A stretch of 64,000 nucleotides of DNA from Triatoma infestans (taxonomy: Eukaryota; Arthropoda; Insecta; Hemiptera; Reduviidae): positions 186,001-250,000 of the forward strand of contig JAAEAF010000089.1 in the NCBI GenBank assembly GCA_011037195.1. Reading direction: 5' to 3'. Numbering within the stretch: the stretch's first letter is position 1; the number at the start of each line of letters is the position of its first letter. This document shows positions 29,791-60,308 of the stretch, piece after piece. A program made the translations under genes and the position numbers. Under the pieces are notes generated by a model, which was not told where the DNA came from, searched no databases, and was given only the letters and a program-made list of their open reading frames with translations.

Positions 29791-30042
29791 TTATTTTTGA
29801 ATAACAGCTACATACACACATAACCCTATCAATTTTTTAAACAGTTTTCCTGGTAACTTGATTTTCGAGAGTGCTGGGGGATCTGTGATGATAAACTTGG
29901 TACTAAACCAACTGTTTAATTTTGTTGGCATTGATGCGAGTACTACTATACAAGTTAGTCTCATTCTGGCAGCTTTCATATTTGGAAAATCAACTGCTAT
30001 AATGGTATGTGTGGCTCTCCACAACCTATAAGTAGATGTAAT
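29791..30042 (-). CDS. FAM187A-like gene, last exon (Ig strand and C-terminal membrane segment)
   Basis: On the minus strand this frame reads RLWRATHTIIAVDFPNMKAA, then LTCIVV, which aligns without gaps to the Ig F-strand region before the second Ig Cys in FAM187A-type proteins. A Pro-rich linker and a hydrophobic C-terminal segment (LFKKLIGLCVYVAVI) follow before TAA. Only the segment from about 30042 downward is gene-like; above it lies the outer edge of the Polinton inverted repeat. An acceptor ending TTATAG at 30022 area would match the phase of the preceding exon (51335) exactly, but would leave out about 25 residues including the Ig Trp. It belongs with the exons at 51335-52799, now 21 kb away across the Polinton. 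Confidence 0.5.
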   Translation of the reverse strand: MTSTYRLWRATHTIIAVDFPNMKAARMRLTCIVVLASMPTKLNSWFSTKFIITDPPALSKIKLPGKLFKKLIGLCVYVAVIQK

Positions 30043-31204
30043 TTGCTGATTCTGGCGGCAAAATTTTTGAGCCCCAGGCACTTATGAATTTACGCCCGAA
30101 GGCAGGGGTCTGGCGCGCGGCTACAAAATTGCGAAGAGACCCCCATCTGATTTTTAACCAGGGGAAAAAATATTTTTGAGCCGGGAAATGGCATGCGAGA
30201 CATGCGGCTACGTTTTGAAAAATCTAGCTTGAAAACAGTCTAAGGTAAAAAAAATATTTGTTAGTCGCGAGATGGGCATGCCTCACCTGCGGCTATGTTT
30301 TATAATATTTAACTTGAAAATATAAGGTCAAAATTTGTCAGGGAAAAAAATTTTTTTTGAGCCGGGAGATGGCATGCAGCTATGTTTTATAATATTTAGC
30401 TAGAAACAATCTAAGGACTGTAATATTGTTTTTGAGCTGGGAGATGATACACACGACATGCGGCTATGTTTTATAATATTTAGCTAGAAACATTCTAAGG
30501 ACTTTATTATCATTTTTGAGCCGCGAGATGACATACAAGACTAGGGCTAATATTTTATAAAATTTAGCTAAAGACTTTAATATTTTTTGATATTCAATAC
30601 TTTGTGTATTTTTATGTATTTTGTTCATGTTTACACTTATAATACTTAGCTAAACACATTCTAAGGACTTTAATATTGTTTTTGAGCCGTGAGATGACAT
30701 ACAGAACATGCGGCTAAGATTTTATAATATTTAGCTAGAAACATTCTAAGGACTTTAATATTGTTTTTGAGCCGTGAGATGACATACAAACGGGCTAAGA
30801 TTTTATAAATTTAGCTAGAAACATTCTAAGGACTTTAATATTGTTTTTGAGCCGTGAGATGACATACACGACATGCGGCTAAGATGTGTAATATTTAGCT
30901 AGAAACGTTCTAAGGACTTTAATATTGTTTTTGAGCCGTGAGATTACATACAGAACATGCGGCTAAGATTTTATAATATTTAGCTAGAAACATTCTAAGG
31001 ACTGTAATATTGTTTTTGAGCTGCGAGATGACATACAGGACAAGCGGCTAAGATGTGTAATATTTAGCTTGAAACATTTTAAGGACTTTAACAATGTTTT
31101 TGAGCCGCGAGATGGCTTCCAAGTCGTGGGCAAACATTTTATAATATCTAGCTAAAGACTTTAATATTTTTTGATATTCTATACTTTGTGTATTTTTATG
31201 TATT
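30031..31204. repeat. Left terminal inverted repeat of the Polinton (tandem-repeat rich)
   Basis: The outermost block AGTAGATGTAATT (30031) is mirrored at 51258-51270. Next come AGCCCCAGGCACTTA, GGCAGGGGTCTGGCGCGCGG and about eleven degenerate units of about 80-90 bp, each carrying TTTTGAGCCG.GAGATGACAT, GCGGCTA, TTTATAATATTTAGCTAGAA and a CTAAGGACTTTAATATTG-type end. The inner border TTTTTATGTATT (to 31204) matches 45742 onward in inverted orientation. Total 1174 bp. No 6-bp target duplication is evident outside. Confidence 0.9.
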
Positions 31205-31300: not shown

Positions 31301-31684
31301 TTATTTATTATGTTTTGTTTTTATAATTACATCAAGAAAATTACAATGGTAAATTTCATCCAAGTCTCTAATAATATTATAATATGAGCCGCCGATAAGG
31401 CTACATATGCAAGTGTCAGGTCCTACTTTACACTTTGGGTTTGACCAAACACATCCTATATAATGGAAAGGTATACGCTTGCTTTTTCTAATATATTCTT
31501 TAGAATAATTTTCCAATTCTTCCATACGATTGTATATTCTCATGAACTTAACTGCATCGTCTCCATCTTTTCCTAAGGTAATTTTGGAGAAATCTTGTAG
31601 AAATTGATGGTAGAAAGGGTGTGATGTAACATAAGTCCACTCCTCCAATTCTTTTATATTGTAACAGCTTGCTAATACAAACAC
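31301..31684 (-). CDS. Polinton hypothetical protein, 127 aa
   Basis: Open frame ending about 100 bases inside the left TIR and lying downstream, in the same direction, of the BIR-containing gene. It is not recognised. The product has a Cys-rich C-terminal half (GCVWSNPKCKVGPDTCICSL) that may bind zinc, and a helical N-terminal half. Coding-like residues continue upstream of the first Met in another frame, so the N-terminus may have been lost by a shift. Confidence 0.5.
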   Translation of the reverse strand: MFVLASCYNIKELEEWTYVTSHPFYHQFLQDFSKITLGKDGDDAVKFMRIYNRMEELENYSKEYIRKSKRIPFHYIGCVWSNPKCKVGPDTCICSLIGGSYYNIIRDLDEIYHCNFLDVIIKTKHNK

Positions 31685-31722: not shown

Positions 31723-32439
31723 TTAAAGTATATATTTCATATAATAACAGTATGGGCTTTCCTTTTTATGCAATGTACAAGGACAATGGGTTACCATATT
31801 TAAATCTAATACAAGATTACAATACACACATGCTATTGTATCTTTCTTAATATAAACAAATCCATTAAAAGCTAACACATCTCTACTAACACAGTTGTAA
31901 TTATTACATCTAGTAAAAGTATTTAATCTAGCTTGAGAGTTGAAAAGATCTAATTTAAATTTGTTAATGTTTGCCCAAGAGGCCATTCTATACACATATT
32001 GAAGTGAACAAATATACTTAGTATTATTATGAAAATTACACTTAAAATGATTTACTGTGGGCAATGTTTTTATTGGGGGACACCCAAAATCTTGTAAATC
32101 ATATACAGGTTTATTCAGTTTCTTTTCTAAAAATAAACACTTTTCCAATCCTTTAGAAAACAAATACGTACAACCTAAAGTGCACCTCTGTAAAATGGGG
32201 TCCAACTGTTCGTAATCTAAATTACCATCATCTTGTGCAATTCCATGATGATTGTTCATTAACCATCGGTTAGGAGCACTGGATAAGTTGTTAGCATTGT
32301 CGGGCAATTTAAACATCCAACATCCCAAGATGCTTAAGTTTGTGTCAGCAATGGCCATCTCACGAACAATAAACGTATCATCATCATCAAAACTTTCCCT
32401 TTTTTGATATCCCTGCAAGTCAATTATTAGAGGATGCAT
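31723..32439 (-). CDS. Polinton RNase-H-fold-like protein fused to a BIR domain
   Basis: From the ATG at 32439 the product is 238 aa. The N-terminal 165 residues resemble a family of arthropod Polinton-associated proteins with a DEDD-exonuclease-like layout (IIDLQGYQ start, NHHGIAQDDGNLDY, KGLEKCLFLEKKL, DLQDFGCPP). The Glu expected beside the first Asp is Gln here, so catalysis is doubtful. Residues 170-235 form a BIR (IAP repeat): RLNTF, LAFNGFVYI, then Cys204-x2-Cys207-x16-His224-x6-Cys231, the exact zinc spacing. BIR domains of IAP proteins bind caspases or IAP antagonists; a role in restraining host cell death is inference. An upstream ATG at 32463 is possible, but the DLQGY start fits relatives better. 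Confidence 0.75.
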   Translation of the reverse strand: MHPLIIDLQGYQKRESFDDDDTFIVREMAIADTNLSILGCWMFKLPDNANNLSSAPNRWLMNNHHGIAQDDGNLDYEQLDPILQRCTLGCTYLFSKGLEKCLFLEKKLNKPVYDLQDFGCPPIKTLPTVNHFKCNFHNNTKYICSLQYVYRMASWANINKFKLDLFNSQARLNTFTRCNNYNCVSRDVLAFNGFVYIKKDTIACVYCNLVLDLNMVTHCPCTLHKKESPYCYYMKYIL

Positions 32440-32549
32440 GATGATGATGGTGGTGGCACACATACAGTGTATGAATGTGAACTAAATCCTATTAGTATGT
32501 TTCCTTGCATTTATATATATACACCCCCTCTAGAAATATGGTTTAGTAC

Positions 32550-33256
32550 GTGCATGCGCATGTGATAATGATATTGAAGAAACAGCGTCTAGTTTTACCC
32601 GTTCTAGACAATGATACAAACCTGGAAAAAAGAAGTTTATTTAGACATAGTGCACTTTTCCCCAACATCATTCGTTGTTTAATATGTGGGCCAAGTAATT
32701 GTGGCAAAACCAATTTGTTATTAACCTTACTTATTCAAGAGAATGGCTTACGTTATAAAAATTTATACATTTATAGTAAATCACTAAATCAACCAAAATA
32801 TGAATATTTAAGTCAAGTGATGAAACATGTTCCCAAAATTGGTTATTATAGATATAGTGATATGGATAATATAATTAGTCCACAAGATGTTAAACCTAAT
32901 TCTGTAATACTGTTTGATGATTGTGGTTTAGATAGTCAAAATGTGATTAGTGAATACTTCACCAGAGGTAGACATAAAATGTGGATACATTCTACCTAAT
33001 ACAAACCTATGCACACGCCAAGAAACATATGCTGCGCGATAATACAAATGTAATCACCGCCTTTAAAATGGATGATTAAAACTTGGAACACATTTATGAT
33101 GATCATGTTAACGTAGATATGAGTTGGAACAAATTTAGAGAGCTATGCAGTCTGTGTTGGGATGATAAATATGGGTTTTTAGTGATTGATAAGGATAAAC
33201 CGTTAAATAATGGAAGATATCGTAAAAGCTTTGACATGTATATTGTGGACATTTAG
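32550..33256 (+). pseudogene. Polinton DNA-packaging ATPase (FtsK/HerA, A32-like), broken
   Basis: Walker A is CGPSNCGKTN (residues 46-55 from ATG 32550; ATG 32568 is an alternative), Walker B is SVILFDDCG around residue 120, and EYFTRGRHKM follows. A frame break near 32990 gives an early TAA; coding resemblance continues in another frame (ITAFKMDD, then TAA at about 33078, then SWNKFRELC and YGFLVIDKDK) up to TAG 33254-33256. The intact protein would pump DNA into the capsid. It is divergent from the BIR gene. Confidence 0.85.
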
Positions 33257-34505: not shown

Positions 34506-35428
34506 ATGTCTACGAAAAAAAAGGAAATAGTTGATGAGTTAATGGCACCTGCTAGAATTCGATTTAAAAGGAGAAAAACTGTACTAAAAGGAATTGATGA
34601 CTTATGGCAAATCGATTTACTACATGTTAAGCAGTATGCAAAGTATAATAAAAACAATACTTTCATTTTAACTGTAATTGATTGTTTTTCCAAATATGCT
34701 TGGGCTGTACCAGTGAAGACAAAACATGCTAATGATGTTACCAATGCTATGAACAAGATATTCCAACAATCTGGAAGAGTGCCTAAAAATATTCAATCCG
34801 ATCGGGGTTTAGAATTTTAAAATTCCAAATTTCAACAGCTTATGAAAAAACATAACATAAATCATTATAGTACTTATTCATCGATAAAAGCATCAATAGT
34901 GGAACGATTCAATAGATCATTACTTGGTAGAATTTATAAACAGTTTCATTACAAGGTTCGTATAAATATTTAAATATATTACCATCAATTGTCGATGAAT
35001 ACAATAATACAATTCACTCTGCAATTAAAATGAAACCAGTTGAAGTTAATAAAGGAAATGAAAAAAGTATATTGAAAAATATTTTATTAAAACAAACGAG
35101 CAGCAGCAGCAAGAAAGCTCTAAATGTTGGCACAGCTGTTAGGATATCGAAGATTAAAAATGTATTTGCCAAAGGTTATACGGCTAATTGGTCTACGGAA
35201 ATTTTTTACATTTATACTGTGCAAAATACAGAACCAACTACTTACACTTTACAAGATGAAAATAACCAAATTATTCAAGGTAAATGGTATCGTGAAGAAT
35301 TATCTCCTGTCAAACATGATAAAGTCTATTTAATTGAAAAAATACTGCAAAGAAAACATGATAAAGTGTTGGTAAAGTATTTAGGAATGAACAGTAAAGG
35401 ATGGATCAAAAAACAAGACTTGGTATAG
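34506..35428 (+). pseudogene. Polinton integrase (rve core plus chromodomain), broken
   Basis: ATG 34506. The N-terminal ELMAPARIRFKRRKTVLKGI region and LWQIDLLHV (first catalytic Asp, residue 37) are followed by FILTVIDCFSKYAWAVPVKT, IQSDRGLEF (second Asp, about residue 99) and, after TAA at 34818-34820, KASIVERFNRSLLG with the catalytic Glu about 34 residues on. A shift near 34955 leads to 35030-35428, which holds an SH3-like segment (WYREELSPV) and a chromodomain-like end (YLIEKILQRKHDKVLVKYLG). The enzyme inserts Polinton DNA into the host chromosome. This copy is inactivated by the stop and the shift. Confidence 0.9.
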
Positions 35429-36068: not shown

Positions 36069-36885
36069 GTGAGGGATGGTTGGTCCAAATTCAATCTACA
36101 ATTAGATGATGAAATGCTGACAAGTGTTAGTATGGCTAGAGTAGTTGGAAGAGGTGTTATCGACTCTGCAATCAATAAACTTCCTTTTGAATTACATCTC
36201 CCTGGTTATAGATTTTGCGGCCCTGGAACTAAATTACAACAAAGAATAAATCAAAGTGGTATAAATCCATTAGATGATGATTGTAAAGCTCATGATATTG
36301 CATATTCACAACATAAAAATTTAGAAGCAAGACATAAAGCCGATCAAATATTGGAACAAGAAGCTTGGAAAAGACTCCTAGCTAAAGATTCTTCGCTCGC
36401 AGAGAAAACCAGTGCATTGTTGGTGGGAAATATAATGAAAGCTAAAGTTAAATATGGAGCTGGCAAAAAGCGACATCGTCCTTCATTTAATCAATTATTA
36501 AAAGCAGCAGCAGTTGGAAAAAAGAATAATAGCGGTGATGTGTTGAAATCGGTTAAATGTGCTTTGAAAAAAGCTAAAGATTACCTAAAAACAAAACCAA
36601 ATAATATTAAAGCACCAAAAGTTATTCCATTGAGGAAGAAACCATGGGTAGGAGGCGTACTACCGCTAATTCCAATACTTGCAGCCTGTCGGCGTTAGGT
36701 TCATTGGCTGGAGGTGCAGCAACCATAGTGAGAACAGTAAAAGACATAGATCAAGCGAAAAAAATTCTTCAAGACAAAAAAGACACAATATGGTTATGGA
36801 AGGACAGAAGGTTGGGCAAGGACTCTACCTGAAACCGTATGGAAAAGGTTTAGGCCTTTATCTAAAACCTTACAACAGAAATTAA
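36069..36885 (+). pseudogene. Polinton minor virion protein with phospholipase A2 domain, broken
   Basis: The PLA2 core (related to the parvovirus VP1 type) is clear: LPGYRFCGPGTKL is the Ca-binding loop and CKAHDIAY holds the catalytic His-Asp (residues 75-76 from ATG 36069; ATG 36132 at MARVVGRG is a more likely start). A Lys-rich middle and a hydrophobic GGVLPLIPIL segment follow. Frame breaks near 36690 and 36800 move the rest into other frames: LGSLAGGAATIVRTV, then GLYLKPYGKGLGLYLKPY to TAA 36883-36885. That C-terminal repeat is typical of the family. The phospholipase would act on membranes during cell entry of the virus form; this copy is not intact. Confidence 0.85.
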
Positions 36886-37253
36886 ATCTACCCAATCGTG
36901 CACTTACAAATTATGATATAACTAAGGTTGTCAAAAAATATTTACCACATTTCCGAGGCGTATTCATGAGAGATAATCTACCATCACGTCCTAGGACTCA
37001 AGAACAAGGTATAATCAATTTGGATTCTTCAAAGAATACTGGTACACATTGGACAGCATATTCTAAAAAGGGAAATAAAGTGTTCTATTTTGATATTTTT
37101 GGTAATTTAAAACCGCCTAAAGAATTGTTAAAGTATTTAAAACAGTGTGACATCTATTATAATAGAGAACGCTATCAAAAGCGAAACCCTTGGAACTGTG
37201 GACATTTATCTTTACAGTTTTTGATGAGAGAGCAAGCGGCAAACAATGTCTAG
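36882..37253 (+). CDS. Polinton adenain-like cysteine protease (start uncertain)
   Basis: ULP1/adenovirus-protease family: GTHWTAYS (catalytic His, residue 28 from ATG 36966), VFYFDIFGN (acidic residue 43) and WNCGHLSLQFL (catalytic Cys 78). Conserved residues continue upstream of the only Met in the same frame (ALTNYDITKVVKKYLPHFRG from about 36900), so the real start lies further up. No ATG exists there and the frame closes at about 36740, so the start codon appears lost or the gene is entered another way. The enzyme would mature virion proteins and sits, as in relatives, beside capsid genes. The core itself has no disruption. Confidence 0.85.
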   Translation, partial: LNLPNRALTNYDITKVVKKYLPHFRGVFMRDNLPSRPRTQEQGIINLDSSKNTGTHWTAYSKKGNKVFYFDIFGNLKPPKELLKYLKQCDIYYNRERYQKRNPWNCGHLSLQFLMREQAANNV

Positions 37254-38080: not shown

Positions 38081-38151
38081 TAAGCAACGTCAAGTTTTTA
38101 AAATCGATAGGATACAAAGTGCACAGATATGGATCACATATTAAACATTAA
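37924..38151 (+). CDS. Small Polinton protein between penton and major capsid genes
   Basis: A 75-codon frame overlaps the end of the penton frame and runs into the start of the capsid gene. It contains a serine run, a basic patch and RRRPLLISNVKFLKSIGYKV. A small basic protein with a similar 'LT..N..FLKSLG' end occurs at this place in related elements; this is recollection, not a search. The function is unknown. Confidence 0.45.
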   Translation: MSTYKGRKGIDFNNIFSSSSSLGNNCILKAKQGKSNISAKAESEQQRRRPLLISNVKFLKSIGYKVHRYGSHIKH

Positions 38152-39360
38152 TCAAGAGGTTACTTTCAACGACAATATTGAAAGCTATGAATATCATTCG
38201 TATACGCCATTTAACTCATCAGGCCTCTCAAATAATGATGAAATTCGCATCACCATGTTCCAAACTGATGTGTACACATTACCAAGTGAAAGTTATCTGT
38301 TCATCGAAGGCAAGTTGGAGAAAGGCGCAGCTAAAAATGCTACTTATGCCAAACTAATAAACAATGCTTTTGCATTTCTATTTGATGAAATTAGATTTGA
38401 AATGAATTCAGTGGAAGTTGATAGTGTTAGAAATGTTGGTATTGCTAGCACATTGAAAATATATGCATGCTTTTTCCCCTCTCAAATTAGAGCTTTGGAA
38501 AATGCTGGAATTGTTGACCCAAATGAGGCTAACACATCAACATGCATCAACACGTTAATGCAGACAGCGTTTCAACGTTTGTCTACCACTTAGATATCTA
38601 TTAAATTTCTTTGAACATTATAAGAATATATTGGTAAATGTGAAACAAGAATTAATATTAAAAAGATCTAGAAGTGATTTGGATGCCCTTGTTGGTGATG
38701 CACAAACGGCTAAGGATTGTACTATTACATTGGAGAAAATTGTTTGGAATATTCCACATATTAAGCTATCAGACCAGGCGAAACTACATATTTATAAGAT
38801 TATCGAGAGTGGTAAGCCGATACCGCTAGCTTTTAGATCCTTAGAATTACATGAATATCCGAATTTACCTAAAACTAATAAAAATCACTTGGCATGTGAA
38901 AACATCAAATCAATTAAACAAACCAAGATATGTGATTTTAGCCTTTCAAACCGATAGAAAAGATAATATGGCACATAACAAATCTATTTTTGATCCTGCT
39001 GATCTACGAAACGTTAAACTTTATTTGAACGATTACAAGTATCCGTACAATGACATGCATTTGAATTTCGAAGAGGGTAAAATTTCACCATTATTTGAAG
39101 AATATGTTAGATTTCGTCAAGAATACTATGGAATGACAAGAATCGAGTCGTTATTTGACAGAAAAGGATTTGCTCAAACACCCTTTGTGGTAATTAATTG
39201 TGCAAGACAGCCGGATAGGTTAAATACATTTGTAGTTGACATTCACATACACATTGAAACTAATAGACCAATTCCACAAAAAACAAATGCTTTTTGTTTA
39301 ATAATTCATGATACGCTTATGGAATATACACCATTGAATGGTTTAGTACGTAGATATTAG
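38129..39360 (+). pseudogene. Polinton major capsid protein (double jelly roll), broken
   Basis: Three frames together cover the hexon-like protein: 38129-38593 (FQTDVYTLPSESYLFIEGKL, LINNAFAFLFDEIRFEMNSV, VDSVRNVGIASTLKIY), 38631-38957 (VNVKQELILKRSRSD, KIVWNIPHIKLSDQAKLHIY) and 38851-39360 (SIFDPADLRNVKLYLNDYKY, FRQEYYG, PFVVINCARQPDRL, ending EYTPLNGLVRRY). The junction near 38590 also lacks part of the expected sequence (a small deletion), and there is a shift near 38920. It would form the virion shell. Too damaged to make a capsid. Confidence 0.85.
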
Positions 39361-41132: not shown

Positions 41133-44100
41133 ATGTCATCTCTATCTTGTGATAAGTGAGGAAAGAGTTTTTCCAAACCATATAATTTAAGGAGGCATGC
41201 TTTAACATGCTTACAAAAAACATGTCCCTACTGCGGTAATATATTCCGCACATTGGTGAAATTCTTAATACACATCTTCTCGTTTTGTATTAAATGCGAG
41301 GATTGCAACATAGTATTTGACAAAAAATCCCTCTTCCTAAAACATACTTGTCAAAACACACCTCATTTTCTTCACACATTATGACAGACAATGACAAGAA
41401 AGTGTTGAATAAAAAGAAATATCGTATGTTATCGGTTCCTCTACAAGATGGCATAGTAGTTACGGCATTAAATAAATCAGCCCAAAATATTTGTATAAAA
41501 AATGTTGACAATATAAAAGACCCGTTGCTATTTCTACAAGATAAACACAACATACTTCTACAGTTGTTGAGTAAAGCTAAAGAAGAGTTACTAGTTTTCA
41601 AATCATCCATTCTATTGGAATGTGTTTACAGTCGGTATAGGAATTCTGATCTTGAACAGTTTACCGATGCCAATTTTAAAACTTCCATAGAAGTTATTGA
41701 CGCTAGTTGCAATTTAATTCACTACCTCCGAAGAGTTTTTGCAAAACTTGTGAGCGAGATTGAAGAATTTGAAATTAGCGGATCAAACTGGAAACTGGAT
41801 TCTATTGATAGCATTGTCATTAGAATAACTAAATATCGACCTTTAGGTGGAAGAGGTTACATCTCTTTACCAAAGGAAATAGCAGATAAACGGGCAATCA
41901 TTAACATTAATAATACTGATGACTTTTGCTTTAAATATGCCATCTTAAGCCGCCAGTTAAAGAAGCCGCGTTCATTATCTGTGTATAAAAAACTAAATCA
42001 TCCTTACAATTTCGACAATATTTCTTTCCCCACACCATTAAAAGATATACGTAAATTTGAAAAACATAATAATGTATCAATAAACGTTTATTTTTTAACC
42101 GAGGAAAATCAAGTGTATCCTCTAATGATAAGTTCAAATGAAAAGTCTGTACAACATTTTGACTTGTTATATTTAAGAAACGAAAATACTTCTCATTATT
42201 GTTTGATAAAAAATTTATCCAGACTTGTTTCTTCACAACTTAGAACAAAGCATAGCAGCGCTGTTATATGTAAACGATGTTTTAAAACATTCAATTGCGG
42301 CTATACATCGGTAGATGGGAAAACACCCGAGGAACGATTAACAGCCCATCAATTATTTTGCAATAAACACAAACCTTGCCGCATTCAAATGCCTTCAGAC
42401 ATATTTACAGTTTACAAACTTTCAACATAAACAACACGTACCAATAGTTGTGTATGCTGATTTTGAATCTATACTTTTACCCGTACACAATGCACCCGGT
42501 AGTCCATCAACATCATGGTCTAGACAAACACACAAGCATGAAATTTGTAGTGTTGGGGCTAAAGTTGTCTCTTCACTATCAAATTATCAAAAAGACATTT
42601 TCATTTACACTGGGGACGATGCGCTCGAACAATTTATGCAGTATTTACATTCTATTGTTAAAGACGTGGAAACCTTATATAAGGAGATTATTCCAATGAC
42701 AGATCTATCACCACAACAACGACATGACTTTGACAATGCCACTCATTGTGGTATTTGTGACAAACCTTTTACCTACTTAGACAAAAAAGTTCATCATCAT
42801 AATCATCTTACAGGGGAATTTCAGTGTGCTGCACATAATGATTGTAATTTAAATTTTCACTTACCCAATTTCATACCGGTCTACATGCATAATCTTAGCG
42901 GGTATGATGCTCATCCTATTATATTATTTTTGGGACAGGATCCAGGTGACATATGGGTAATACCGAATTCAACTGAGAAATATATAAGTTTTTCGAAAAA
43001 ATTTAGCGGTTGTACGACGCTATGGCTTAGATTTTTAGATTCTTATAGGTTTTTACCAGACAGTTTAGAACGACTAATAAATAACTTGACTGAATACCCA
43101 CAAATGGAACAACAATTTCCAAATTATGATGAACGAAAATTACTACTTAGAAAGGGTATTTACCCATACGCCTATATGACAAGTATGGAAAAATTAGATG
43201 AACGCTCTTTACCAGCTAAACAATATTTTTTTAATGATTTAACCGATGAGCACATACCCGATAATGATTATTTACACGCTCAACAAGTCTGGACCGCTTT
43301 CAATATACAAAGACTTAGAGATTACACAGGATTGTATTTAACAACAGACATAATACTTTTAAGCGACATAGTTGAACAGTTTAGAAATGTGTGTGAATCT
43401 ATTTACAGCATTGATCCAAGTTGGTATTTCACAACGCCTGGGTTGGCATTTGACGCCTGTTTGAAATATACACAAGTAAAATTGGAACTATTGACTGATT
43501 ATGATAAACATCTTATGATTGAATCTGGTATTCGTGGAGGTATCACTTCGTGTGTTACAAGATATTCCAAAGCCAATAACCCATACATAAGTGGTTACGA
43601 TCCCACACAACCATCTAGCTATATTTTATATATAGATGTTAATAATCTATATGGGTTTGCAATGAGTGAATATCTTCCTTATGGTGGTTTTGAATGGGTG
43701 GACAATAGTGTGGATGTTACCACGATTCCCGATGATAGCGATGATGGTTTTATTCTAGAGGTTGATTTGCATATACCAACCCGCTTATACAATCATTTCA
43801 GTCAGTTTCCACCACTGCCACATCATCACAATAATAAACTCTATACCACGCTAGAGGATAAACTACATTATGTGATTCATTACAAAAATTTGAAACAAGC
43901 TCTGTCGATGGGTGTTGTTTTGAAAAAAGTACATAGAATATTAAAATTTAAACTATCCCCCTGGCTTAAACCTTACATAGAACTGAATACTAACTTACGC
44001 AAGACGGCTAAAAACGATTTTGAAAAGGACTTTTACAAATTAATGAACAACCCTGTTTTTGGAAAGTGTATTGAAAATAAGAGGAAACGATTAACCATCA

Positions 44101-44814
44101 AACTTGTCACCACGGAAAAAGCATTTTTAAAATTATCCAAAAGACCAAACTTTAAAGACGACAATTTTTAGTGAAAACGTTGTTGCAGTACACTTACAAC
44201 AGGAAACAATTTATCTGGACAGACCTACTTACGTGGGATTTTCGATTTTGGAACTCAGCAAACGGTACATGTATCAATTTCACTACGAGGTTATGTTACC
44301 ATTTTATAATCGTACTTCCCTGAATTTGCTATACATGGACACTGACTCTTTTATATATAATATTCAAACAGACGATGTATATGATGACATGATTGAATTG
44401 AAAGACTATTTTGACACTTCCAACTACCCTGTTACGCACAAATGCTATTCAAACCACAATAAGAAAGTGTTGGGTAAATTTAGCGATGAAACTGCCGGAG
44501 TTCCTATTCAAGAGTTGGTGGCATTAAGACCTAAAATGTATAGCTTCAACATTTTCAACAAACACATCGTTAAAAAGGCAAAAGGTGTTAAAAAAAGCGC
44601 TGTGAATAGAATATCATTTTCTGATTATCTAAATGTGTTAAAAAGCCAAGACCTTGTATTACATGCACATTTCAAAACTATTCAATCTAAACGACACCAA
44701 TTATACACATATGAATGTAGTAAAACAAGTTTGACATGTTTTGATCAAAAACGTTTCATTCTAGATGACGGAATTCACACTTTGCCATACGGACACTATA
44801 AACTCAACAAATAA
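41133..44814 (+). pseudogene. Polinton protein-primed DNA polymerase B with zinc fingers and an EndoVII-like insert, broken
   Basis: From ATG 41133 come C2H2-type fingers (SFSKPYNLRRHALTC, CPYCGNIF, CEDCNIVFDKKSLFLKHTC), with TGA at 41157-41159 where the second Cys of finger 1 belongs. After a shift near 41385, 41390-42430 gives the usual N-terminal region of arthropod Polinton polymerases. After another shift, 42450-44171 gives exonuclease motifs VYADFES, MHNLSGYDAH and TTDIILLSD, plus a recombination-endonuclease-VII-like Cys/His cluster (CGICDKPF, HHHNHLTG, CNLNF) between Exo I and II. Polymerase motif A is LYIDVNNLYGF and motif B is KLMNNPVFGK. A shift near 44170 leads to motif C, LLYMDTDSF, in 44233-44814. 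All catalytic residues survive, but three shifts and one stop prevent a whole enzyme. It would replicate the element. Confidence 0.92.
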
Positions 44815-45741: not shown

Positions 45742-45831
45742 AATACATAAAAATACACAAAGTATTGAATATCAAGAAATATTAAAGTCTTTAGCTAGAT
45801 ATTATAAAATGTTTGCCCACGACTTGGAAGC
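45742..45831. repeat. Inner fragment of the right Polinton inverted repeat
   Basis: AATACATAAAAATACACAAA to GACTTGGAAGC is the inverted match of 31118-31204 in the left repeat. It is cut off by the LTR retrotransposon at 45832 and resumes at 50215, with AAGC present on both sides. Confidence 0.9.
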
Positions 45832-46466
45832 TGTAGTGGAAATACGAAATGAAAAATAATAGTTTTTAAAAATAATTTATCTAATTTTGTTAATATATTA
45901 GACTGTGAATTTAACTTCAAAAAGAGTGTATTTTAGAACCAGGTATATTAAGTCTGGTCATTGCTAATAGAGAAACAAAGGCAAAATCCCGTTAGGGTAA
46001 TTCTTTGTACAAGAAAATTCCCCCGCTAGAGAGAGAGCAATTCCAAAGAATAGAGAGAGCCATCAGCTTTCAAATAGTTCAGTTCAAAAAAGAACAGTCA
46101 GACTTGTACTACAAATCAAGGTGGAAACATCGAAACACTACTTCAGGAATCGCTCTCTAAATATCTGTGCCAGTTTCACAATAAATTAATAAGTTTATAA
46201 TATCAAATAACTTGTAGTTATTATTTTAACAGAATATAATTATTTTAAAAACAGTGTGATTTCTTTATTATTGCTAATACTTCATTCTCTTTTATACAAA
46301 CATAATTACAAGCCCTTATACAAAACCGCTTAAGCCACTACAAACTACAACATCACCATAACTTTAATTGGTGCCAGCTGTTTGGGATATTTTCAACCAG
46401 AATCCACAAATTAAAAGTACGTACAATTTTCAATTTCATAATTAAACAAATTATCCATCAGATAAT

Positions 46467-47768
46467 TTGATTGTTTTTAATTATTTTCTCAGCATTGAAT
46501 TTTCTAGTCAATTTCATAATCAAATTTTTTGTATTTGCACTATCCCTTGTGAATTTTGTATTTCCAAAATGTATAAAATTAACGGACAAAACATGAAAAT
46601 CGACGCTGCTGTAAAATATTTACTTGCTCAGCAACAATTAGCCAATCCTCCTCCCACCATCAGCAATCAACCAGCTAGTTCCTTAAGAAATTTGCAATTA
46701 ATTAATAGTTTACCCACCTTCGATGGCGAAAATTCAGCCAAAGTGTCAGATTTCCTTGACCAAATTAGCCATTGTGCTAGTCTTTCTGGCTGGGGCGACC
46801 CAGCGAAATTAGAAATATTAGCACTTAGGCTCTCAGGTTCTGCAAAGATATTTTACGACACCCAGAAAGCCGAATTACAACGCCAGGGTACAATTATACG
46901 TATCCTCTAATTTCAGAGCGACTTCTAGCCCGATTTCGTAAGGAGAAAACACCCCTAGTCCTCTTACAACAGATGACTAATATTCAATCTCTTCCAACAG
47001 AGTCTCCTGAAACTTTCGCGGATAGGATTAGATACATCCAATCCGCCATTCATTTAAAAGCTCAAGCTAACTCGAGGCCTTACAAACTATTTTAGATAAA
47101 CTGGCCACTGATGCATTCCTGAAGTCACTTCCTCAACCGCTTCGTAATGAGGTGCGAACTAAGCTACCTCAAAAATTAGACGAAGCACTTTCTTATGCCA
47201 ATGCCCTAAAAGAAGTTCAGGCTTCTGAAACAAGCCCCACAGTTTTCGCTGTTACTTCGAAAACTTCTAGCACACCCCATCTCCTTGTCGTTTCTGTGGA
47301 CAAATGCATTTCCACAGAGAATGCCCGCATCGAAATAAAAGTCAAAAGCCACAATTAAAACCAACTAGAGTTTTTAATGTAATAAAGAACAGACCTTGTT
47401 GCCATTGCTCCGGTCCACATTTTGACGTGGTCTGTTCAAACAAATTTCAATCAAAACCTCGCACTAACTTTGGCAAAATGCCTAAGAATTTTAATTTTCC
47501 TAGAAATTTTAATCACAGAGTATATAGTAATAATCGCTATAATAATAATAATAATAATAATAACAGTCAATATTATACTAACAATAATAATCCTCGAGTT
47601 AATTCAAATAATTCACGATTTAACTCTTATTCAGATAGACCCCAGTATAGTCATAATAATGGTGACGAAACTAGCAATAACCTCCAAAATAGGCCTACTT
47701 GCCAATTTTGTTCAACATTTGGACATACGGCTCGAAATTGTTTCCAGATACAGCCCAAAACGAGTTAG
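46467..47768 (+). pseudogene. Gag polyprotein of the LTR element, broken
   Basis: Frames at 46467-46910 (likely start at Met 46569, MYKINGQNMKIDAAVKYLLA; capsid-like SLPTFDGENSAKVSDFLDQI), 47152-47358 and 47304-47768 form one Gag with shifts near 46890, 47075 and 47285. The C-terminal part has CCHC-type knuckles (CCHCSGPHFDVVC, CQFCSTFGHTARNC) separated by an Asn-rich tract of AAT repeats. It binds and packages the element's RNA. There is no pol gene after it. Confidence 0.8.
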
Positions 47769-49681
47769 CCCTCAGTCGCTTTCTCGAACACCTGATATTA
47801 TGACCAAGGCTATCATACCTGCTTCCATTAGTCCTGATAACCAGGTAATACCTAATTATGGCATCACGTCCCTTCATTTGCATGCGGACAATGTCGAAAA
47901 TTCCAAATTTTTCTGGCGAATTAGAGGGCAATTAAAGGGCAATTTTCAATTAATACTTGTAGAAACGTTCTTACAGGGCAATCATTAATTTGCGCACCGT
48001 ATCTAACACTTAATAAATTCAACATTCAATTTTCAACTAGTAATCAAACGCACTAATTTAGTACTAATCGCTAAGTTCACTAAAATCCCTAGTAACTAGC
48101 CACAAAATTTCTGTGCCACCTCGCGCACACAATACATAACACTTGAAATAACATACTTGACATAATCTCTTGAAATTATTCTCATTCTATCACACTTCTC
48201 AACCTATTCTCAACTCTACAAACTACACCACATGTATATATTAACCATATAATTAGCAAACTTATGAACTATATATATAAAAAAAAAAAAAAATGCATGT
48301 AATCAATTAATTAGTCTTAAAAACAAAAATGTATATTATTTACAATTTATTTTATTTTGCAGAAATCAAGATGAACACGTAAACTTGATTGATATATCTG
48401 TTATGTAATGCAATGTTTAATAGTGATCTCTTTATTTAACACATTCTTTTTTCTGTTCCAGCGACGACGATGTCAATGCAGAAATTAAGAATTCCAAATA
48501 TTGATTTAGGATGAATTTTTAATTAAATTTTAGTATGTTTATATTAATACTCGTAAATTATATATTTTTTGCAGATTTAATGTTTGATATTTTGATGTTT
48601 AATTATGATATTTATGATATGTATTATTTTTTTTCAGTTCGCCTTAAAAGAAAACTGCATTACTTCTATCTGTTATATTTAGTCGATCTTTTGATCCTAT
48701 TAATCTAACATTTTTCTAATATTTAATTGTTTTCTCAATGTATGTTCAAGGTACCTAGAAAGCACAGCATAGCTGAATAGCTCTTGGAATACGACGGCCC
48801 AAATATGTATACATACCTCATAAAGTAGCTACTGCAGTAATTCAATATTTACTTCAATAGTAAAATATGTCTTAGTTAAGAATTTTAACTATAAGAATTT
48901 TCTATAAAAATTAAGTGTCCAACAATGTTTTAATGTTAGATTTAACAATTAAACATTTTAAATTTCTCTTTTGCAGATTGAAACTTCTTCACAGCTACAT
49001 CATTGCATGGGTATGCATGAATTGCATGTGTATGAATGTGTGCATGAAAATTGCATGTTACTTGTAAATTAAAAATTATCTATCATTCATTATTTGTAAT
49101 TTAATATTCTGTTGAATACTATAGTCTTCAGATACACAAGGTTTTACCAAAGGAAAAGATCTTCATATTCTCATACCCTTTGCGATCGCATATCCTCATA
49201 TCCTTCCGCATCCCGCTCGCTTATTAAATATATATATTTTAAATATGATTGTAAATTAAAGTTAATTATTTTGAATTACTTAAGAGGTTTTTTTTTTTGT
49301 TCATATAGAGTTAATTCAAAAAAATACATGCACAACTACAGCACCATCACACAGAAGCCTACATTGTTCACCTTGTCTACCTTGCCAGTCACATCTTCAT
49401 CAGCAACACTCTCACTCGCCAAGCAGTGTTCGCCTGTCAGCCTACCACCACAGCAACGCTCACCCACTCACGCAGCGTTCGCTCGAGTAGAAGATATTCA
49501 AACACCACAGCAACGCTCGCACATCCAAGCAGCGTTTGCCGCAGAAGAAGATGACTGCAGCCTACAATGCGACCACCTTGCAGAGGTTACACACAAGCCT
49601 CTCGATAACTTCCAGCCTCTACAACTCCAGATTATCTCCCAAATTTTTCGTGCCGAAAAATTTCTCCAGGAGGGGGGATAA
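47769..49681 (+). other. Noncoding part of the LTR element, with a small repeat-bearing ORF
   Basis: About 1.3 kb of AT-rich sequence without pol. A frame at 49112-49681 ends at the polypurine tract; its second half holds two copies of a PQQRS..QAAFA..ED unit (tandem DNA repeat near 49450-49550). It is probably not a conserved protein. Confidence 0.5.
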
Positions 49682-50214
49682 TGTAGTGGAAGTACGAAAT
49701 GAAAAATAATAGTTTTTAAAAATAATTTATCTAATTTTGTTAATATATTAGACTGTGAATTTAACTTCAAAAAGAGTGTATTTTAGAACCAGGTATAAGT
49801 TAAATCTGGTCATTGCTAATAGAGAAACAAAGGCAAAATCCCGTTAGGGTAATTCTTTGTACAAGAAAATTCCCCCGCTAGAGGAGAGCAATTCCAAAGA
49901 ATAGAGAGAGCCATCAGCTTTCAAATAGTTCAGTTCAAAAAAGAACAGTCAGACTTGTGCTACAATCAAGGTGGAAACATCGAAACACTACTTCAGGAAT
50001 CGCTCTCTAAATATCTGTGCCAGTTTCACAATAATTAATAAGTTTATAATATCAAATAACTTGTAGTTATTATTTTAACAGAATATAATTATTTTAAAAA
50101 CAGTGTGATTTCTTTATTATTGCTAATACTTCATTCTCTTTTATACAAACATAATTAAAAGCCCTTATACAAAACCGCTTAAGCCACTACAAACTACATC
50201 ACCATAACATTACA

Positions 50215-51270
50215 AAGCCATCTCGCGGCTCAAAAACATTATTAAAGTCCTTAAAATGTTTCTAGCTAAATATTACACATCTTAGCCGCATGTTGTGTAT
50301 GTCATCTCGCGGCTCAAAAACATTATTAAAGTCCTTAAAATGTTTCAAGCTAAATATTACACATCTTAGCCGCATGTCCTGTATGTCATCTCACGGCTCA
50401 AAAATGATAATAAAGTCCTTAGAATGTGTTTAGTTAAATATTTTAAGTGTAAACATGAACAAACTACATAAAAATACACAAAGTATTGAATATCAAAAAA
50501 TATTAAAGTCCTTAGCTAAATATTATAAAAACATAGCCCTCGACTTGGATGACATCTCACGGCTCAAAAACATTATTAAAGTCCTTAAAATGTTTCAAGC
50601 TAAATATTACACATGTTAGCCGCATGTTCTGTATGTCATCTCACGGCTCAAAAATGATAATAAAGTCCTTAGATTGTTTCAAGCTAAATATTACACAACT
50701 TAGCCGCATGTCGTGTATGTCATCTCACGGCTCAAAAACAATATTAAAGTCCTTAGAATGTTTCTAACAATACATAATAAAAACAAAGTATTTGTTCATC
50801 GTATTGGATGATAATATCAAAAAAATATTAAAGTCTTTAGCTAAATTTTATAAAATATTAGCCCTAGTCTTGTACGTCATCTCGCGGCTCAGAAATTTTT
50901 TTTGTCCCTAGCATGTTTTAAGCTAAATTTTACACATGGGTGTCATCTCGCGGCCAAAATTAATTTATTTTAGACAAATTTTGTCCTTACATTTCAAGCT
51001 AAATATTATAAAACATAGCCGCAGGTCATGCATGCCCATCTCGCGGCTAACAAATATTTTTTTTTACCTTAGACTGTTTTCAAGCTAGATTTTTAAAAAC
51101 GTAGCCGCATGCCTCGCATGCCATCTCCCGGCTCAAAAAAAAATTTTTCCCCAGGTTAAAAATCACTTAGGGGTCTCATCGTAATTTTGTAGCCGCGCGC
51201 CAGACCCCTGCCTTCGTAAGTGCCTGGGGCTAAAAAAAAACTGACCCAGAACGCAGGAATTACATCTACT
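50215..51270. repeat. Right terminal inverted repeat of the Polinton, outer part
   Basis: Inverted counterpart of 30031-31117: tandem units of about 80-90 bp with GCCATCTCGCGGCTCAAAAA, TCCTTAAAATGTTTC.AGCTA and TTAGCCGCATGT, then CCGCGCGCCAGACCCCTGCC, AAGTGCCTGGGGCT and the outermost AATTACATCTACT. The two repeats have drifted apart, which indicates age. Confidence 0.9.
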
Positions 51271-55075: not shown

Positions 55076-57243
55076 GTGAATTGTAACGGATTGGAACGGG
55101 AATTACTAGTAGATACGAGAGCTGATATTACAGGGCAACCGCAACGGATAGCCGGCAAACAACTCTTGCAGATGACGATTGGGGACGAAACTACAGAACA
55201 CGAAGTCTGGATAGTAGAGATGGACTGCGGGACGGAAGGGGTTCTGGGTTTGGATGTTATGAAGAAACTACGGTTAGTGGTGGATTTGGCAGCAGGGATG
55301 ATTGCGAACCAGGAAAGTGGTCTTAAAGTCAGTTAGAAGAATTACCACGGTGGGAATTAATGCTATATGCATTTAAAAAAGGAAAAGCATCGGCTAGTAG
55401 AAAAGACCCAAGAGGATGTTCACAAAGAGGACCAGTGGAAGCTGTTGAAGTTTGTGCGCGATTACTTTTCGGGAGCAGACGGATTGCCGAAGGAAAAATA
55501 CATATGCCTACAAACTGCGAAATTGAAGGGGATAGAAACTGAGGAGGGTGGGGTAGTCGAAGTATCGGATGATTTTATTGAGAGAGGAGATACCTCTCGC
55601 AGGGTGCGTGATCGGACATCAAGCGCCGAGGGATTGGGAACCAACGGAAGTAAAACTAAAGACAAGCGTTCAATTGACGCCGTGGAGCGAAACCTTTGTC
55701 AAGTGTAAACTGGATCCAAGGAACCAACCTGAGAACGTGATTCTAGAAGAATTTGGCCAATTACCCGCGGGGCTGAAAGTGGGGCGGATATTAGTGACAC
55801 GTATGAAAAACAACGTATGGGGTCAAGATTAGAAACCTAAATAAGCAGGAAGTCACATTAACTGCGGGGAGTACTATAGGAAAGACCGCCGTTACAGAAA
55901 ATCCTACCAAGGGAGGATTATGGTCATCAAGGGCGTTGAAGAACGCACTTTTGAGGAGGAGATTCACGAGAAATTATTACATTGGCCTACTGAGATGCGA
56001 CACCCACTACTAACCGTCCTGCGGAGTTACCAGGATGTACTGGATTCGAAAATAGAGGGGAAGTTACCATGCACCAGTCTGGTCCAGCATAAAATCGAGA
56101 CAGGGGATGCTGTGCCACAAGCGAAAGCTGCATACAAAGTGCCGTATCATTTACAAGAAGAGATGAGACAACAAATTGAGGAGTTACTTCGAAAGGGGAT
56201 TATTGGGCCGTCTACATCTCCTTGGGCCGCGCCCGTAATTCTGGTTAGAAAAAAAACGCGTGAGGGAGAGAAGGCCAAGTACAGAGTCTGCATGGATTTT
56301 AGAGGGCTAAATGCAGTCACAGGGGGTGATACCTATCCTCTACCCAATATCAGCGAAACGTTGAATCGCCTAGGGAAGAGCCAGTGGTTCACTACGATTG
56401 ATCTAACCAGCGGGTACCACCAAATTGAGATAAAGCCGGAGGATCGAGAAAAGACCGGGTTCAACACGATTGACGGACACTATGAATACAATCGGATGGC
56501 GTTCGGACTGTCGGGGGCGCCCGCCACGTTTTTAAGATTTATAGATGCTGCGCTCGTGGGAATAAAGGGGGCTGATTGTTACGTTACCTGGACGATGTAG
56601 TGATTTTCGCTGCGATGGAAGAAGAACATCATCAACGGCTGGGTAGGGTCCTACAGAGACTGAGGGAAGTGGGAGTCAAGACAAATATAGAGAAATGCCA
56701 ATTTATGTGCACGGAGCTTATCTACCTAGGTCACCTTGTGACGAGAGATGGGGAAGGCCAGACCCGAAGTAAGTGTTGGCAATAGAGAAATACCCGAGAC
56801 CGACTAATGTACGGGAGGTGCGGGCATTCCTGGGCCTGACGGGATACTATAGAGGTTCATTAGGGATACGCGGAGATAGCGAGACCATTGACTGAATAAA
56901 GGCTGAAACGTCTTTTGAGTGGAACTCGACCCGAATAGAAGCATTTGAACGACTCTGGGACAGACTAATAAAACTTCCGGTGCTCAGGTTCCCGGACTTT
57001 GAGGAACCGTTCATAGTGGCTACAGACGTCTCAGGGGTAGCGCTGGGGGCGGTATTATCCCAGCGACTCAATGGGGAGGAACACCCGATTGCCTATGCCT
57101 CATGTCAACTGAACACCGCGGAGAGGAATTATTCGGCAACCGAGAAGGAATTACTGGCGATGGTGTGGGGGATAGCTCAATTTAGGTGCTATTTGGACGG
57201 GCGGAAGTTCAAGGTCATTACGGATTGCGATGAACCTTGTTAG
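55076..57243 (+). pseudogene. Gypsy A Pol (protease, reverse transcriptase, RNase H), broken
   Basis: The protease region has LLVDTRADI, in which the active-site Asp-Thr is kept but the usual Gly is Arg, and EGVLGLDVM. Reverse transcriptase: YPLPNISETLNRLGKSQWFT, TIDLTSGYHQIEI and MAFGLSGAPATF in 55920-56600, then after a shift YLDDVVIF (active site) from 56585 and LGHLVTRDG. RNase H: FIVATDVSGVALGAVLSQR and YSATEKELLAMVWG in 56980-57243. The shifts and stops make it inactive. Confidence 0.9.
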
Positions 57244-57643: not shown

Positions 57644-60308
57644 TGTAACGTTTTTCCCTCTAAACTGGCTACTGCAACTAGTTTTAAGTGGGTTCGTAGA
57701 TAGAATTCTCTAAACTTCAATAAGACAAACACCAATTTATTGTTTTACACAATAAATTATAAATACAACACTTAATAACAATTAACAGTTTAAACCACAA
57801 AAGTTCACTTTGTTCTCTTTTTATACACTTTCCACAAACGTACACTTCGTTTGTAACCAAAAAAACTCTCTCAACTCGCTGTGGTCCCACTATTTATACC
57901 GGTGGGGAAGTGTCTAGAATGTTCTCAATTCTTCCAGAGAGAACTAAAGCGCGTCGCCAGCGGCTACTAAGAGAACTTGAGGTACATGCTTTCTCTCCTA
58001 GATGGCACCACTGGCTGCGTTACACTGCTCCCCTCTCAGATCTGTTCGTCCCGAACAGAAACATTGCTGGTGACGTAAGGCAGTAACCGGTCCAGATGCA
58101 CGACCTTCATTTTGGATCTGGGCATCCGTTGGATTCGATACACCAGGTCGTTGAGCCTTGAATGATTGTGTAAGGTCCTTCCCAATCGTTTTGAAGCTTT
58201 GGGGACCTTCCCTTCTTGCAGGCCGGATTATACAGCCATACTGTCTCGCCTTCCTGGAAGGTCTTTCCGCTGACCTGTAGATCGTACCGCGTTTTCATCC
58301 GGTCACTTCCTAACACCATCTTGTCGCGCACCTATCCACGGATGGTCCTCAATCTGCGGCGAAGCTCTTCTGCATAGTTGTACACGTCTGTTTCCTCCTC
58401 TTCTGGACTGCCAAGTAAAAGTCACTGGGTAGCCGAAGTTCTCTTCCAAGCACAACAATGGCTGGTGTGCGGCCCGTGGTCTCGTGGACAGCCGAACGGT
58501 ACGCCATCATTATTAGAGGTATGTGTTCGTCCCAGTCGTCCTGGCGTTCATTCACCAAAAGCCTTAAATGGCTTCCTAAAGTCTTGATAAATCGCTCCAC
58601 CATGCCGTCAAACTGAAGGGGATTGAAGTGAAGCGGCGTTGTCCTCGTCTTCCTGACGCCAAGAATTTCGCAGACCGGCTTGAACACCTGTGACTCAAAG
58701 TTTCTCCCTTGATCAGAATGTAATTCCAGCAGAATCCCGAAACGGCTGAACAGGTTATTTACTAGAGCTTCGGCCTCAGTTGATGCGTCCTGGGTTGGCG
58801 AAACAAACGCCTCCGTCCACTTGCTAAAGTAGTCCGCCGCAACTAGTATATAGCGATTTCCCCTTTTAGATTTTGGGAAGGGGCCGGCTATATCGATAGC
58901 TATTCTTTCGACCGGTGCTCCAACATTGTACTGCCTCATAGCGCCACGGGTTCTACTTCTGGGTCCTTTGCTCGCTACACATTCCGTGCATCGCCGGCAC
59001 CAATCTTCGAAATCCTGGTGGTAGCCTACCCAATAGAACCGCTGCCTCAACTTTTCCAATGTCTTCTTTACCCCGAAATGGCCGCCAGTAATGCCTCCGT
59101 GCACCTCTGCTAACACTTCTTCTCTCTTCGATGCAGGTAGAATTACCTGATTCCTTTTGTCTTTGCCATCTGCGTTTTCCCAGATCCGCAGCAAAACGCC
59201 ATCTTTAACGGTGAGCGAATCCCATTGTGCGCAGTAGCATTTCACATCCCGACTGCTAGGTGCAATGTCTTTCCAGTTCGGTCTTGACCCATCTTCTTAA
59301 AACTTAAGCACTGGTCCGATGTCCTCATCCTTAAGTTGTTCTTCCCTATACACTTCAGGGCTCCATTCTTCTAGTGGTAAGACAGTGGTTCTTTTACATT
59401 GTCCCTGCTCTTTCAGGTCTATCTTGCTACAGCGCTTGCAATCCTTATTGCAAGGCCATCTTGAAAGAGCGTCAGCATTGCCATGGAGTCTTCCCTTCCG
59501 GTGGATGATCTTGAATTGGTATTCCTGCACTCTCTCTATCCAGCGAACTACTTGTCCTTCCAGGTTCTTGAAATTTAAGAGCCAAGTCAATGAGAAGGTC
59601 TGTCCACAATAGGAAGGGCTGTCCATACAAGTATTTACGGAAATGTTCCAGTGTCTTCACGATTGCCAGAAGCTCATTCCTAGTGACACAGTAATTCTTT
59701 TCAGCCTTAGAGAGAGTTTTAGAGAAGTACGCAACGACTTGTTCTTCGCAATCCTGTACCTGGGAAAGTACACCCTCTATTCAAACGGCGCTGGTATCTG
59801 TGTCTACTATGAATTCGCAACCAGCCCTCGGGTATGCCAAGATTGGGGACATCAATAAGGCTTTCTTGAGTCGATCGAATACTTCTTTTGGCATTTAGGT
59901 GTCCATTCGAAAGGTTGCTCATTTTCAGTCAACCGATGTAGTGGCCTGATTATGTCTGCAAATCCGAGGACAAATCTCCTGCAGTAAGTACACAGCCCCT
60001 GGAAACTTCTGATTTCACGTTTATCTTTCGGGACCGGCCTCGCACTCACGGCCTCAATCTTCTCAGGATCGGTCTTCACTCCTTCTGCGGCAACAATTTG
60101 TCCCAGGTATTTCACCTCCTTGCCAAACAGTTGGCATTTCTTCAGGCTAAGCTTCAAGCCAACGCCGGACAATTTTTCCAAGACCTCCAATTTTCCAATG
60201 CCTGAGGTATTCCTTTAAGGTAGAGCGCGTTGCCAGCGTATCTCACGGCTACTAAGAGAACTTGAGGAGCAGCTTTCTCTCCTAGATGGCACCACTGGCT
60301 GCGTTACA
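57644..60308 (-). mobile_element. Ty3/gypsy retrotransposon B, internally deleted, minus strand
   Basis: The 3' LTR is 57644-58024 (381 bp; on the minus strand it begins TGTAACGCAG, holds a TATAAATA box and AATAAA, and ends ACGTTACA). A purine tract (GAGAGGGGAGCAG) lies next to it at 58025-58037. Only the first 87 bp of the 5' LTR remain (60222-60308) and they abut mid reverse transcriptase, so the rest of the LTR, Gag, protease and early RT were deleted together. ATAT on both sides (57640-57643 and 60309-60312) is the likely target duplication. It differs from element A in sequence. Confidence 0.88.
58107..60190 (-). pseudogene. Gypsy B partial Pol (RT C-terminus, RNase H, integrase)
   Basis: On the minus strand: 60190-59852 has KKCQLFGKEVKYLGQIV and FQGLCTYCRRF (end of RT); about 59850-59480 carries RNase H pieces in shifted frames; 59626-59297 has WIERVQEYQFKIIHRKGRLH and NADALSRWP. 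Then 59245-58349, an unbroken 298-codon frame, is integrase: an HHCC zinc module (HGGITGGHFGVKK, CRRCTEC) and the DDE core (IAIDIAGPFP, ELHSDQGRNFES, MVERFIKTLG). 58331-58107 has the C-terminal domain (YDLQVSGKTFQEGETVWLYN). Confidence 0.88.

Follow-up and report, generated by a model that had tools for sequence, protein, structure and literature searches.

Polintons are giant transposons of animals, generally regarded as viruses that have become endogenous, and no role is known for many of the accessory genes that they carry. Together with the adintoviruses, a group reportedly defined by Starrett and colleagues in 2021, they are recognised by terminal inverted repeats (TIRs) beginning 5'-AG, an rve integrase, a double jelly-roll (DJR) capsid protein, an ATPase and a type B DNA polymerase (PolB), and by a 6-bp target site duplication. 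Here we describe an accessory gene of one such element in Triatoma infestans, found in a window of 64,000 nucleotides (the whole stretch of DNA analysed; assembly GCA_011037195.1, contig JAAEAF010000089.1, forward-strand positions 186,001 to 250,000). Its product very probably joins a pseudonuclease domain bearing a Maelstrom-like zinc site to a BIR domain with a changed peptide groove, the whole being kept under constraint.

Among described systems, the MAEL domain of Maelstrom, a protein of the PIWI-interacting RNA (piRNA) pathway (PDB 4ybg, 5af0, 9nhc), has its DnaQ-H fold and its Glu-Cys-His-Cys (ECHC) residues in common with the N-terminal half of the fusion, whereas the window protein matches neither the HMG box nor the Pfam Maelstrom family PF13017 and carries a BIR at its C-terminus. 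PMC4408791 describes the Bombyx protein as binding single-stranded RNA and inactive as a nuclease, with D122 and E137 lying 15 apart and with a C290-x2-H293-x8-C302 pattern; a note added in proof there adds that the arenavirus nucleoprotein (NP) keeps its DEDD residues and is active. This exonuclease domain (PDB 3mwt) retains a catalytic set that the fusion protein does not. For the C-terminal half the comparison is with the BIRs of IAPs (XIAP BIR1-3, cIAP1, DIAP1, NAIP and viral IAPs), which have in common with it the fold, the pattern of zinc ligands and the R-x-x-TF and GF motifs. The fusion protein differs from them in its groove, in a CPC or CVC triplet before the zinc-binding His (16 of 26 sequences), in having a single BIR and in the attached pseudonuclease. 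The gene and its two domains are placed as follows:

31723..32463, minus strand: open reading frame (ORF) encoding the fusion, 246 aa when read from 32463 and 238 aa when read from 32439, where the ATG is the likely start
31951..32439, minus strand: N-terminal domain, residues 1-163, a predicted DnaQ/DEDD-fold pseudonuclease with Maelstrom-like E27/C134/H137/C144 and motif I as D7-x-Q9
31738..31929, minus strand: C-terminal BIR domain, residues 171-234, matching PF00653 and, as a predicted model, the XIAP/cIAP folds

A preliminary description of this stretch had proposed an exonuclease-like, RNase-H-fold Polinton protein fused to a BIR domain, and the fusion itself is borne out, both folds being recovered when predicted models are matched to solved structures. 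An active exonuclease is not: in a set of 80 proteins that contains many near-identical copies, motif I reads D-x-Q in 72, with Gln in place of Glu, and the final Asp position is occupied by Phe, Tyr, Gln, Asn or Lys and by Asp in none, a comparison that covers motif I and the last Asp, the position of the second Asp not having been located. The catalytic set of the DEDDh 3'-5' exonucleases is therefore not kept. The ECHC set (E27, C134, H137 and C144 in the window protein) is conserved, with C-x2-H-x6-C in 69 of the 80 and the motif-I Asp and the Glu separated by 15 in 56 and by 20 in 14; its equivalence to that of Maelstrom is drawn from order and spacing, without residue-level superposition. 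The spacing from His to the last Cys is mostly 6 in the fusion family, against 8 in Bombyx Maelstrom and 10 in two host Maelstrom exons as we read them. The best viral structure matches of the N-terminal domain are uncharacterised adintovirus and polydnavirus ORFs (E 1e-11 to 1e-7), namely A0A7D4ZHK6 of Drosophila-associated adintovirus 2 (166 aa), the unnamed Q4FEW2 (199 aa), GfV-D6-ORF1 and AsIV-cont00151-ORF1, which have this fold in common and are, judged by length alone, too short for an additional BIR. These short matches, from the adintovirus and from ichnovirus ORFs, indicate that the family of N-domains extends beyond the proteins with the fusion. Compared with PDB sequences, profile A4 returned BIR chains and one arginine repressor, and no exonuclease or Maelstrom chain.

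The C-terminal domain is a BIR by profile and by fold. In a Pfam profile search the window protein scores 36.7 bits against PF00653 (gathering cut-off 22.9), and BIR is matched at E<=0.1 by 16 of 16 rows of alignment A1 and by 18 of 20 rows of alignment A3; the alternative zf-C3HC (NIPA-type) assignment reached 20.6 bits, under its cut-off of 22.2, and was set aside. The signature with zinc spacing Cys-x2-Cys-x16-His-x6-Cys, from which the domain had been named, holds up, and the predicted model of the C-terminus matches XIAP and cIAP structures. The expected ligands are C204, C207, H224 and C231, with an extra CPC before the His, and the protein would accordingly be predicted from its residues to bind zinc. 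Among the 80 proteins the Cys-to-His spacing is x16 in 45, x15 in 28, x13 in 1 and x17 in 1, and is unreadable in 5.

The peptide groove tells another story. Its positions, which we take to be W310, E314 and W323 in the numbering of XIAP, were counted from the zinc ligands in 29 fusion-family sequences, of which L015, P0004 and P0014 have no readable motif; the remaining 26, two near-identical pairs among them, have Trp at neither the W310 nor the W323 position (0/26 for each), and Glu or Asp at the E314 position in 10, the window protein having His there. By contrast, the three host BIRs that we read keep W310 in 3/3, W323 in 2/3 and Asp at the E314 position in 3/3. The domain is thus a BIR by fold, yet not an ordinary IAP-type (type II) BIR that binds the IAP-binding motif (IBM). 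Binding of caspases or of IBM peptides, the first reading and that of the preliminary description, was demoted once the groove residues were tabulated and does not stand for the usual groove; caspase binding by another surface may still be compatible with the loss.

This anatomy recurs across subfamilies: the BIR ligands and the ECHC set are conserved, and two DEDD positions and the groove tryptophans are lost. In the 941-Mb genome, the window protein as query finds 45 rows, its own included, with alignments over no fewer than 237 of the 238 residues and an identity of 93% or higher. Sixty-six ORFs aligned over more than 180 residues, drawn from 88 loci, form 11 clusters at 90% identity, and nine of these, the window's included, are full fusions, L014 and L015 lacking one end; the eight other full clusters share 38-45% identity with the window protein. 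A protein collection holds 14 relatives (12 with the source tag lgn), 13 of them with the fusion, although P0004 lacks one Cys ligand, and P0014 with the N-domain only; P0002 and P0003 stand close to subfamilies found in this genome, so their source may be this species or one near to it. Scans of IMG/VR found no relatives. A Pfam BIR search of the genome gave a mix of Polinton copies and host IAP exons (150 scored of 289 candidates), and L096, a candidate N-domain-only copy, proved to be a broken copy of the L009 type.

Constraint on the gene is read from the ratio of nonsynonymous to synonymous substitution (dN/dS), which, as the preliminary description had proposed to check across copies, lies well below 1 in both domains. 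By the Nei-Gojobori method and with no likelihood test, it is 0.11-0.28 for the whole gene in 11 pairs between subfamilies; taken domain by domain, it is 0.07-0.40 wherever dS was computable, the pairs being non-independent, several dS values near saturation and one not computable. Among members of the window family it averages 0.41 (0.49 in the N-domain and 0.32 in the BIR; 105 pairs from 15 rows, among them L001, the window locus). The intact frame is another matter. It had been remarked that this frame survives where most structural genes have decayed, and 39 of the 45 full-length family rows are indeed stop-free (frameshifted copies, seen as partial rows, fall outside the count), but at least 16 family rows also keep a capsid frame of 413-414 aa without a stop. 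Selective survival of the fusion frame is unsupported by the comparison made, which used a 169-aa capsid piece and whose counts are not strictly comparable, frameshifted copies appearing as partial rows. Since the capsid is often open in other copies, an unbroken fusion ORF within a decayed element does not on its own point to selection; the between-subfamily dN/dS does.

Two further comparisons concern the history of the gene. In all eight other cluster representatives compared (L014 and L015 were not), it lies directly downstream of the capsid ORF and on the same strand, whereas the window family has it close to the left TIR and in divergent orientation to the ATPase; the gene has moved while the fusion stayed together. 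L046 and L089 are 89% identical in nucleotides over the N-domain and 70% over the BIR. This sharp drop at the domain junction, equalled in 0 of 5000 codon shuffles, suggests an exchange of BIR halves between subfamilies; three of the other ten pairs have a weaker difference of opposite sense (99-156 of 5000) and seven none. Beside the fusion gene, a minus-strand ORF of 127 aa (31301-31684) is 30% identical to an ORF in L062 and found no match in family searches.

As to function, we favour the view that animal Polintons (elements of the adintovirus type) encode here an accessory protein directed at the host. Its probably inactive DnaQ-fold module, held by a predicted ECHC zinc site of the Maelstrom/arenavirus-NP type, would most likely bind RNA rather than cut it, by analogy with Bombyx Maelstrom. 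The BIR would be the second module and would bind proteins, by a surface distinct from the peptide groove that IAPs normally use. The purpose may be to blunt the host's silencing by RNA, or its cell-death signals, while the element replicates. The chances that the protein is such a non-catalytic, RNA-binding and partner-binding factor aimed at the host appear to us evenly balanced. Several observations weigh against it. None of 24 proteins matched PF13017 at E<=10, in a search with HMMER, whose filters discard weak matches, so that the link to MAEL rests on fold and motif, and the fold score of the N-domain for Maelstrom equals that for ordinary DnaQ exonucleases. Relatives of the N-domain exist whose length leaves no room for a BIR, and a sublineage present in many copies (about 40 rows, 214-219 aa long and grouped by length only) is represented by L095 (G000:C2674:53840-54540), the sole copy read, in which the N-domain is followed by a shortened BIR of 18.3 bits, under the cut-off of 22.9; a full BIR is hence not needed everywhere. 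That the gene adjoins the capsid gene in other clusters would also suit a role linked to the virion: a virion or assembly protein would be produced together with the capsid protein, its two zinc-type domains serving packaging or structure. That possibility is an unlikely one, because the divergent placement in the window family shows that the pairing with the capsid is not fixed, and we know of no capsid role for BIR or MAEL-type folds.

The IAP mimic, whose BIR would bind caspases or IAP antagonists (Smac/Reaper-type N-termini) and block apoptosis of the infected cell while the N-domain acts as carrier or localiser, draws on the window protein's true BIR fold, in which the four ligand positions are all present, and on the IAPs that many arthropod DNA viruses in BFVD carry; the altered groove, set against that of the host BIRs, and a single BIR with no RING match in a Pfam search of the window protein leave it improbable. 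An active DEDD-type nuclease, similar to that of arenavirus NP and destroying immune-stimulating RNA with the BIR as targeting domain, is very unlikely in the face of the replaced motif-I Glu and the missing final Asp. The least credible account, and a remote one, is an old, decaying passenger without present function, preserved by chance in the window copy: the element looks dead, with broken capsid and polymerase genes and a nested element resembling a long terminal repeat (LTR) retroelement, but the low dN/dS and the stop-free frames, which with P0001 as query number 142 (8 with a stop) among 150 scored of 1018 candidates, contradict it for the gene family, and it is possible for the window copy alone. 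Within the favoured host-directed role, a narrower version would make the protein an antagonist of piRNA silencing. It would mimic Maelstrom by its fold and its binding of RNA, and its re-tooled BIR would attach to a silencing or cell-death factor of the host, allowing the element to evade germline defence; we hold this to be quite unlikely, and were it true, an animal DNA transposon would encode a factor of counter-defence.

These results assign to one family of Polinton accessory genes, intact across several subfamilies, a fold and a role that can be put to the test, and link a giant transposon to two host systems, the piRNA pathway through the Maelstrom fold and the control of cell death through the BIR fold. 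A literature search for Polinton with 'BIR domain' found nothing, and we found no description of a pseudonuclease-BIR fusion in the portions covered of the Polinton and adintovirus literature, Starrett et al. 2021, which might name BIR or IAP genes, being outside that coverage. Term searches met no text on apoptosis inhibitors in PMC11071296, PMC8363768, PMC10675110, PMC4028283, PMC11071308 and PMC2646287, and the passages on Polintons and apoptosis retrieved from PMC4061559 and PMC5803895 are without the fusion. PMC4061559 proposes that NS3-like zinc-finger proteins of bidnaviruses and other arthropod viruses, unrelated to IAPs, may inhibit apoptosis.

The element around the gene shows the Polinton/adintovirus feature set, several members of it broken:

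30031..31118, plus strand: left TIR, beginning 5'-AG, with internal direct repeats of about 84 nt
32550..32999, plus strand: fragment of a packaging-type ATPase, in divergent orientation to the fusion gene
34506..34820, plus strand: rve integrase core fragment (PF00665, E 1.6e-11)
36069..36698, plus strand: phospholipase A2-like gene (PF08398, E 7.6e-13)
38129..39360, plus strand: DJR major capsid gene in at least two frames (PF21738 in 38129-38593 and 38851-39360)
42342..44814, plus strand: putative PolB pieces in two frames, with motifs IDVNNLYG and KLMNNPVFGK (by eye) and YMDTDS (by script)
50215..51270, minus strand: right TIR, beginning 5'-AG, with arrays of direct repeats of about 84 nt

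A relative of the ATPase fragment in L069, 47% identical, matches Pox_A32 above the cut-off. The polymerase pieces have no Pfam match and are assigned by their motifs alone, which we take to be those of PolB. The ORF at 36966-37253, presumably protease-like to the eye, gave nothing significant in a PDB search. No 6-bp target site duplication is seen at the ends of the element, where the flanks read CCTATA and AGTCAC, and this copy may be rearranged. An LTR-retroelement-like insert (45832-50204) is nested in the Polinton, with repeats at 45832-46355 and 49682-50204 that lie about 3.85 kb apart and CCHC gag-like fingers at 47271-47768; an extra copy of the 84-nt repeat stands just before it (about 45742-45831), on its far side from the right TIR. 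Outside the Polinton, the window also holds retroelement-type integrase (58349-59245) and reverse transcriptase (55920-56600) ORFs.
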